From an uncultured Clostridia bacterium (GTDB lineage: Bacteria; Bacillota; Peptococcia; Peptococcales; Peptococcaceae), in NCBI GenBank assembly GCA_944391625.1, contig CALXUG010000018.1:1-51333 (forward strand): a stretch of 51,333 nucleotides of DNA, read 5' to 3'. The translations under genes were made by a program, and so were the position numbers. Numbering within the stretch: the first letter of the stretch is position 1; the number at the start of each line of letters is the position of its first letter. The notes under the pieces were generated by a model. It worked only from the letters and a program-made list of their open reading frames with translations. It did not search any database and was not told the origin of the DNA. Positions 1,957 through 47,619 of the stretch are shown piece after piece.

Positions 1957-2043
1957 AAAAATACGTACCACCATAAAAAATTGCCGGTAAGAGATTCCTA
2001 CCGGCAACATAATCTTTCTGATATTTTATTTTTGTTTCAGTCT
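1942..2043. repeat. Direct repeat copy B (original guaA terminator region)
   Basis: Second copy of the ~101-bp sequence at 86-186, same orientation. It lies directly downstream of guaA and includes the guaA terminator, so it is the more likely original location. The segment 2044-2114 has no gene. Confidence 0.8.
1974..2007 (-). terminator. Intrinsic terminator of guaA
   Basis: On the minus strand TTGCCGGTAGG pairs with the TACCGGCAA arm over AATCTCT and is followed by TTTTTTATGG. It lies about 110 bp after the guaA stop. Confidence 0.75.
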
Positions 2044-14400: not shown

Positions 14401-14782
14401 GTATCTCCTCTCCTAAGTTTAGATTTCCAACCAGATTTTTCCATTGTTTGGTGTGAAAGATTGTATAATCGGCTATCTTACCTTTGCTAATCTCCTGTCC
14501 AAAGAGTATGCAGTCGGCTGCCTATCTTTGCCTATCCTTCAGTGCGCCGGACACCAACTTGTTTGTTTCTTTCGCTATGGACTGCGTCCAGCTCAATAAA
14601 AACAAACTGCGTTGTTGACCGTCGCAATTCAGAATTTTGGCAAAGGATAGGCCAGCCTTATGTGCACAAGCTAGGGAGATGTTTTATTGCCGTTGTCGAC
14701 ATTGAAGCGGACAGATGCGCAGTCTGTCTTACTGAACTGGACGCAGTCCAAAGTGAAGCAGACCGACAAGCAGATGTCTGTG

Positions 14783-14803
14783 CCCGACGCCTTTCTGGTC
14801 GGG
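14783..14803. repeat. Small hairpin module inside R1
   Basis: CCCGAC..GTCGGG with loop GCCTTTCTG. The same module occurs in R2 at 38509-38529, but in the other arm of the palindrome. Confidence 0.7.
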
Positions 14804-14856
14804 TAGGAGGGCAGGCAACAAACAGTCTCCCAACAATGGAGCATTACAAACAAAAA

Positions 14857-14872
14857 TGTTTCACGTGAAACA
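14857..14872. promoter_or_regulatory. parS centromere site, ParB (Spo0J) binding
   Basis: TGTTTCACGTGAAACA is a perfect 16-bp palindrome identical to the Bacillus-type chromosomal parS consensus. ParB loads here, slides along DNA and recruits SMC condensin; such sites cluster in the origin-proximal part of chromosomes. It stands in a gene-free gap between repeat R1 and the LysR terminator. A degenerate copy occurs in R2. Confidence 0.88.
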
Positions 14873-14951
14873 TAGTTATTAACCAATTTACAGCTAATAC
14901 AATATAGAAATGAAAGAATATCTGCTCTTTTTTAGACTTTCTTTCACGCAA

Positions 14952-14990
14952 AACAATAAAAATAGGTACCCCTTTCGGGATACCTATAGT
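14952..14990 (-). terminator. Intrinsic terminator of the first LysR gene
   Basis: On the minus strand TAGGTATCCCG pairs with GGGTACCTA over a short loop and is followed by TTTTTATTG. It lies ~40 bp after the LysR stop. Confidence 0.8.
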
Positions 14991-37994: not shown

Positions 37995-38100
37995 ATTATC
38001 ACCTTTCTCTCAGAAATTCTTTGTACGTTATATTCTTTATAAAATGTTCCAAATCCTGTTTTAATGTTACAAATTTCACAACTCCGTTTTTATGCTGCAT

Positions 38101-38132
38101 CGTTAGGAGACTGTTTGTTGCCAGCCCTTCTG
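38101..38132. repeat. Partial third fragment of the dispersed repeat end
   Basis: GTTAGGAGACTGTTTGTTGCC resembles the repeat-edge sequence GTTGGGAGACTGTTTGTTGCC of R1 and GTCGGGAGATTGTTTGTTGCC of R2, but the rest of the element does not follow. Confidence 0.55.
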
Positions 38133-38176
38133 TCATGGATAAAAACTTGCTGTTTGTTAAATTTGGTTAATAAGTG

Positions 38177-38192
38177 TGTTTAGTGTGAAACA
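38177..38192. promoter_or_regulatory. Degenerate parS-like site in R2
   Basis: TGTTTAGTGTGAAACA matches 13 of 16 bases of the consensus; three changes lie in the left half near the centre. Flanks (AAATTTGGTTAATAA) match those of the perfect parS near R1, so the sites are homologous. Probably weak or inactive for ParB. Confidence 0.6.
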
Positions 38193-38508
38193 CTTATGTC
38201 AGCCGCAAATCGACTAACACAAATAGGTAATGAAAGAATGTCGGGAGATTGTTTGTTGCCTGCCCTCCTTCAGTGGACATCCGCTTGTCGGTCTGCTTCA
38301 CTTTGGACTGCGTCCAGTTCAGCTAGACAGACTGCGCATCTGTCCGCTTCAATGTCGACAACGGCAACAAAACATCTCCCTTATTTGTGCACAAAAGGCT
38401 GCCTATCCTTTGCCAAAATTCTGAAAAGCGGCGGTCAGCAACGCAGCTTGTTTTCATTGAGCTGGACGTAGTCCATAGCGAAAGAAACAAACAAGTTGGT
38501 GTCCGCTG

Positions 38509-38529
38509 CCCGACGCTTTTCTGGTCGGG
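38509..38529. repeat. Small hairpin module inside R2
   Basis: CCCGAC..GTCGGG with loop GCTTTTCTG; the counterpart of 14783-14803 but inserted in the opposite arm relative to the palindrome. Confidence 0.7.
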
Positions 38530-38592
38530 TAAACTGAAGGATGGGCAAAGGTAGGATAGCCGGCCACGTAATCTTTCACACAAAACAATGGA

Positions 38593-46883: not shown

Positions 46884-47426
46884 TCATCCTTTATGCGCGA
46901 ACGCTCTCTCCAGAACAAGAATCAGCACAACTGCCAATATCAATTCAAACGGCATTTGCGTTACCATTACAGTGGCCGATGCCGCCCATGGCAGATAACC
47001 AATCAGGCTGGCCAGTCCCAGATAGCCTATGGTATTGGTCAGTGTGCCTACCACTGCTGCCGCCGCTGCCCCCATGCGGGTCCGTCGGAATAACGCATAA
47101 GTGTAGTAGGCAGTTACACCGATTAAAATGCGGGGCAAAATGCGTACAATAGGATCCGCCGGAATGGCTCCCACCGGTGTCATAAAGCTGTACAGCCCAA
47201 AAATAAAGCCCGTAAAAGCGCCAACCACCGGCCCCTCCAAAATAGCGGCCAATATAACCGGCACATGCATAATAGTTGCCCGACCGGCCAGTGACGGCAT
47301 AGGGATCATACCCAATCCGGTAACACTGAGCACAATGGATATGGCGCCCAACATACCGGCCACTGCCATCTTTCTGGTAGAAATTCTTTGTCCTCTTGCA
47401 TTGCGTGTCGCTGTTTTTTCTTGCAT
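46884..47426 (-). CDS. ECF transporter S component, probably pantothenate-specific (PanT-like)
   Basis: 180 aa, six membrane segments. The pattern RKMAVAGMLGAISIVLSVTGLGMIP, ATIMHVPVILAAILEGPVVGAFTGFIFGLYSF and IPADPIVRILPRILIGV is that of ECF S components. Substrate specificity is inferred from the tight coupling with coaX, the pantothenate kinase; the shared ECF module genes are not in this window. GAGGTGAATGGT precedes ATG at 47426. Confidence 0.88.
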   Translation of the reverse strand: MQEKTATRNARGQRISTRKMAVAGMLGAISIVLSVTGLGMIPMPSLAGRATIMHVPVILAAILEGPVVGAFTGFIFGLYSFMTPVGAIPADPIVRILPRILIGVTAYYTYALFRRTRMGAAAAAVVGTLTNTIGYLGLASLIGYLPWAASATVMVTQMPFELILAVVLILVLERAFAHKG

Positions 47427-47469
47427 ACCATTCACCTCATTTGATTTTTGCGGTAAAGCCAAATGAAGC

Positions 47470-47504
47470 AAAGAAAAAAGCTGCCAGAGCGCAGTCTGAC
47501 AGCT
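47470..47504 (-). terminator. Terminator-like hairpin ahead of the ECF/coaX unit
   Basis: Minus-strand AGCTGTCAGA and TCTGGCAGCT form a stem with loop CTGCGC, then TTTTTTCTTTG. It either ends the punA-vanY transcript or acts as an attenuator for the ECF gene. The leader at 47505-47619 has paired-looking G/C-rich blocks, but I do not recognise a known riboswitch in it. Confidence 0.65.
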
Positions 47505-47619
47505 ATCATCATTCTTTCCTGTCATCCATCCCGGTCCTCGTCAGATCCAGGTGGCTCCCCTTGTTTATATGATAAAAAATTTAGTTCTACAGGGCTCCAG
47601 GCTCCCGTGAACAGTTTTA

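Follow-up and report, generated by a model that had tools for sequence, protein, structure and literature searches.

The window examined here, a 51,333-nucleotide stretch of a genome (2.97 Mb in 74 contigs) from a genus of Peptococcaceae documented in gut MAGs, contains two elements, R1 and R2. These are probably members of a family of mosaic repeats, intergenic and restricted to the genus, whose spread seeded parS, the ParB (Spo0J) loading site, all round the chromosome. On our best reading, R is a mosaic repeat of BIME/MITE-like character that acquired and dispersed parS, giving a 'many-centromere' chromosome. The features of both elements are collected in Table 1.

Table 1. Coordinates of the R1 and R2 elements, their component parts and other features of the window.
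Feature	Position	Strand	Remarks
R1 element, terminus to terminus	14441-14957	+	core matches ~40 other copies; earlier bounds 14436-14895
R1 left terminal inverted repeat	14443-14460	+	ATTGTTTCGTGTGAAAGA, 1 mismatch; also parS-like, 4 mismatches (TGTTTGGTGTGAAAGA)
R1 hairpin I	14513-14651	+	153 bits, covariance model R1
R1/R2 inverted arms	14548-14652/38401-38505		93% identity, ungapped 105-bp block adjoining the 126-bp block
R1 internal inverted repeat	14550-14599/14729-14778		76%
R1/R2 inverted arms	14653-14778/38276-38401		94% identity, ungapped 126-bp block
R1 hairpin II	14679-14834	-	59 bits, E 1e-9 on opposite strand; homologous to hairpin I; arms AGGGAGATGTTTTRTTGCC / GGCAACAAACAGTCTCCC nearly invariant
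Small hairpin module	14781-14805	+	TGCCCGACGCCTTTCTGGTCGGGTA; separate short repeat, also in congeners
Perfect parS in R1	14857-14872		TGTTTCACGTGAAACA, exact match to consensus
R1 right terminal inverted repeat	14940-14957	-	ATTGTTTCGTGTGAAAGA, 2 mismatches
R2 element	38090-38591	-	opposite orientation to R1; right boundary approximate
Second partial parS unit, R2 right end	38087-38131
R2 decayed parS	38177-38192	-	TGTTTCACACTAAACA, 3 mismatches
R2 hairpin II	38240-38375	+	65 bits
R2 hairpin I	38402-38564	-	141.5 bits
R2 left terminal inverted repeat	38572-38589	-	1 mismatch
Direct repeat, 68 bp	119-186 and 1976-2043		94% identity, 1857 bp apart
ORF, 332 aa	18995-19993	-	9-bp (three-residue) repeats, collagen-like Gly-X-Y kind
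Rfam pan motif RF01749	47522-47611	-	43.9 bits; upstream of same-strand ORF 46884-47525

R1 and R2 had been described in the original prediction as related, mutually inverted copies, and the alignment bears this out (~93% identity over ~230 bp). BLASTN of R1 against the genome returned 82 pieces, with ~40 strong separate copies, so that the pair is not unique noise, and a covariance model of the R1 hairpin gave at least 130 matches, ~50 of which were strong. The R copies of the genome, about 50 in number, are intergenic and show no orientation bias relative to genes; among the copies with checked flanks, 12 had the same orientation as both neighbours and 9 the opposite one, while 7 lay between divergent and 6 between convergent neighbours. 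The end of R1 previously placed at 14895 falls short, as the element runs on to ~14957, the site of the inverted copy of the left terminus. Each copy had further been taken for a large imperfect palindrome; the inverted symmetry is real, but the actual structure consists of two homologous hairpins of ~140 nt in inverted orientation, and R2 behaves like R1 in this respect. That the hairpins are homologous and inverted follows from the left-hairpin model finding the right hairpin on the opposite strand, and the palindromic appearance of the copies is due to this arrangement.

The hairpin covariance model was built from the left hairpin (32 copies, 41 pairs), and the check for RNA covariation revealed strong compensatory change in the helices: 97.6% of cells are standard pairs, changes on both sides occur in 19 of the 41 pairs, and pairing falls to 30–49% in a control in which the partner strand was slid by 1–3 columns. 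The helix changes group into about five stem block variants, so that independent events are few. The TGCCCGACGCCTTTCTGGTCGGGTA module, which sits at either hairpin depending on the copy, has 25-bp identical matches in genomes G005 and G009 and near-identical matches in G001. The best-preserved copies are bounded by inverted termini of ~17 bp (ATTGTTTCGTGTGAAAGA), exact at both ends of a copy on contig C6 (77973-77990/78422-78439); these termini are similar to one half of an extended parS site, and a terminus scan of the genome listed mostly R copies and parS (unpaired matches inspected in part). Flanks read by eye showed no consistent or convincing target-site duplication. No mobilising enzyme for R was found in the genome, in which the Y1 (RAYT) transposase family (PF01797) had no match though controls were positive. 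In Rfam 15, R had no match above the gathering score and a permissive threshold gave chance matches only; searches of R1 against plasmids and phages, and of the core patterns against viral contigs, gave no match.

A 16-bp palindrome in R1, overlooked in the earlier reading, is an exact ParB/Spo0J parS, the consensus for which is identical to TGTTTCACGTGAAACA (PMC7383237). The genome contains 69 exact parS sites (reversed-pattern control, 0), and allowing 1–2 mismatches added only 7 more, with a single match to the reversed pattern at up to two mismatches. The normal cluster, within 8 kb around parA-parB on contig C27, accounts for 11 of the 69; the other 58 are spread over 40 further contigs, 43 of them with an R-type hairpin no more than 300 bp away and 15 with no hairpin in that distance. 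Altogether, 41 of the 74 contigs carry parS at 59 separate loci, and these contigs represent 2.24 Mb (75% of the assembly) and include 17 of the 18 longest. The parS module of R has one to three perfect sites, and this right-hand module is sometimes tandem with a period of ~116 bp (C1:46934/47050, C4:48026/48141 and C16:19109/19226).

With the assembly in 74 contigs, map positions were derived indirectly, from local gene order compared with G037, a complete outgroup genome belonging to this class. The GC skew of G037 switches at ~2.66 Mb, which is also the location of its two parS sites, and at ~0.9 Mb. The window's contig is placed at ~0.77 of the ori-ter distance in G037 by six collinear matches. 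Most placements of contigs C1 and C2 fall close to the terminus (medians 0.84 and 0.90), and there is a single parS locus per contig over 370 kb, which hints, with few genes behind the placement, at a lower parS density in this region. Known parS sites lie near the origin, with 20–23 per genome the largest number quoted (PMC7333895), whereas 58 of the 69 sites detected here lie outside the parAB cluster. Inside the origin cluster itself there is an R-type hairpin pair (L068, C27:30592-30923) with a perfect parS on both sides, which looks as if it had been inserted at, or had duplicated, parS; the gene adjoining this copy was not clearly orthologous in an empty-site comparison.

Conservation of parS was assessed in 29 units recognised by the right flank alone, one of which (L039) is probably misaligned. 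The site was exact in 25 of these units, against 2 and 11 for the adjacent 16-mers to the left and right, and mean identities were 96% for parS, 84% for the left 16 bases and 88% for the right. Given these figures, parS appears to be under purifying selection while the repeat around it drifts. Conservation of the hairpin arms equals that of parS, which is thus not the sole constrained part.

Named relatives of the ParB protein come from UBA7185 and from Peptococcaceae MAGs of the gut of goat, water buffalo and cattle. In a census of 38 genomes across the class, exact parS numbered 3–33 per genome in seven congeners and 0–2 in every other genus, and the covariance model detected related hairpins in each of the seven congeners but not in five further genera of the family, the weakest matches being possibly due to chance. 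Hairpins and scattered parS are therefore both characteristic of the genus, and it is in the studied species that their combination within a single repeat is most fully developed. Congener parS sites are mostly solo, often flanked as TTGCAAA-parS-TTTGCAA, and include dispersed ones; a recognisable hairpin lies near only a few of them. Few dispersed sites are shared with G003 and G005, and those mostly in the origin region. Since roughly one in four aligned copies and most congener hairpins are without the parS module, parS is not needed for the existence of the repeat. The congeners also possess very stable intergenic hairpins of 140–180 nt (L301-L319), with varied stems and a skeleton common to all.

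ParA, ParB, Noc and SMC are intact in the genome: ParB (C27, 301 aa) is encoded beside ParA, inside the 11-site parS cluster, a full-length SMC (1187 aa, 1093 bits) is present, and a Noc homologue on C38 scored 328 bits against a curated cut-off of 315. Read against the residues assigned as switching binding from parS to NBS (PMC7383237), ParB, with GKSR and ...SVG at positions 173/201 (R173 and G201 in the numbering of that paper), is predicted to have parS-type specificity, and Noc, with the set Q173, K179 and R201 (H184), NBS-type specificity. No exact copy of the canonical NBS core ATTTCCCGGGAAAT exists in the genome; when up to two mismatches were allowed, NBS-like sites numbered 37, compared with 6 in the control. 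Four Noc-site-like palindromes (1–2 mismatches from ATTTCCCGGGAAAT) occur within 250 bp on contig C42 (1912-2162), which shares synteny with the region around the origin in G005.

Several known systems share part of this organisation. BIME/REP elements of Enterobacteria are multi-copy intergenic mosaics of inverted palindromic units (~35–40 nt) with protein-binding sites, a description that also suits R, but the units of R are of ~140 nt and carry parS, and its genome is without the Y1/RAYT transposase. MITEs are short non-coding multi-copy elements with inverted termini; R is likewise short, non-coding and multi-copy with ~17-bp inverted termini, but differs in that neither a clear target-site duplication nor a parent transposon was found, and in containing parS units of ~116 bp in tandem. 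The parS of R has the 16-bp consensus of chromosomal parS, and ParA and ParB are encoded inside the 11-site cluster, whereas chromosomal parS elsewhere forms origin clusters and the 69 sites on 41 contigs described here are mostly carried by a repeat. As with the NBS of Bacillus subtilis, these are scattered sites for a protein of the ParB family, but they differ in sequence (R bears parS, not NBS) and are mostly repeat-borne.

The main rival to a host-maintained role is selfish spread with parS as passenger or target. R would then be a MITE- or BIME-like repeat without benefit to the host, its termini derived from, or inserting at, parS; the probability of this is appreciable, if well short of likely, and the same may be said of its corollary, that perfect copies of parS are signs of a recent insertion or of self-recognition. 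The likeness of the termini to half of an extended parS, the perfect sites flanking the hairpin pair in the origin cluster and the copies without parS all agree with it, but parS stays exact while the bases next to it in those copies have drifted by ~13–16%, and neither the 15 dispersed parS without a hairpin within 300 bp nor the dispersed solo parS of congeners fit. A non-autonomous mobile element was among the candidates first put forward, and it gains from the multi-copy, intergenic and randomly oriented nature of R and its inverted termini; neither a clear target-site duplication nor a mobilising enzyme was found.

It seems improbable that the dispersed sites serve Noc, the ParB paralogue of nucleoid occlusion, in place of the Noc sites usually scattered round Firmicute chromosomes. 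Noc is present, ATTTCCCGGGAAAT lacks an exact copy, the dispersal resembles that of Noc sites, and two large near-terminus contigs have one parS locus each; however, the residues of Noc are of NBS type while ParB keeps R173 and G201, and NBS-like sites exceed the control. A structured non-coding RNA family in many copies, another of the original candidates, is in our view doubtful at best: the covariation of hairpin I and the very stable congener hairpins are in keeping with it, but cruciform or single-strand DNA repeats would be equally expected to maintain hairpins, R is a mosaic of two inverted homologous ones, and, given no gene-orientation bias and no Rfam match, nothing specifically favours an RNA function. 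The G-U versus A-C asymmetry of the helices did not discriminate between RNA and DNA. Open frames of 108 and 101 aa overlap R1 and R2, but it is hardly credible that the copies are an ordinary protein gene or alike by chance. The ORFs are without protein-family matches and one segment varies in length by 1–2 bases among copies, in agreement with the original non-coding call; the coding or chance reading was rejected on the single-base length variation and the ~50 intergenic copies.

The third candidate, a chromosomal architectural element, finds support in the centromere-like parS sites carried by R. In the explanation preferred here, a repeat of two inverted homologous ~140-nt hairpins, with short inverted termini resembling half a parS, would in the studied species also have come to bear the module of one to three perfect parS, and parS would have been seeded round the chromosome because the repeat carrying this module spread. 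ParB would nucleate at the dispersed sites, spread as a clamp and recruit SMC, and the cell may keep these sites for help in organising or segregating its chromosome. From a conserved perfect parS and a ParB in the same genome it is a short step to suppose that ParB loads there. We propose tentatively, with slightly less than even confidence, that a one-centromere chromosome has come to bear dozens of sites for ParB loading, extending from the origin almost to the terminus, which are maintained by selection and used for segregation or SMC loading in a lineage whose ParABS, SMC and Noc are standard. Pseudomonas and Caulobacter tolerate extra parS far from the origin poorly (PMC7333895, PMC5815017), and distant strong parS sites lead to SMC collisions in Bacillus subtilis (PMC8357415); this cost of ectopic parS in model bacteria counts against the explanation by dispersed parS. 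The same holds for the copies and congener hairpins that have no parS module, the equal conservation of the hairpin arms, the failure to find a target-site duplication or a mobilising enzyme, and the indirect map positions. Searching the literature, with most subscription papers outside the coverage, for parS in connection with MITEs returned nothing relevant.

Bacteria examined to date have parS only in the neighbourhood of the origin (PMC7333895, PMC5815017). A genus with tens of genome-wide perfect parS sites and an ordinary ParB and SMC would be a natural test of why parS clusters, in which it could also be asked how collisions are avoided when SMC is loaded at many sites, and whether the layout of centromeres is open to remodelling by mobile repeats.
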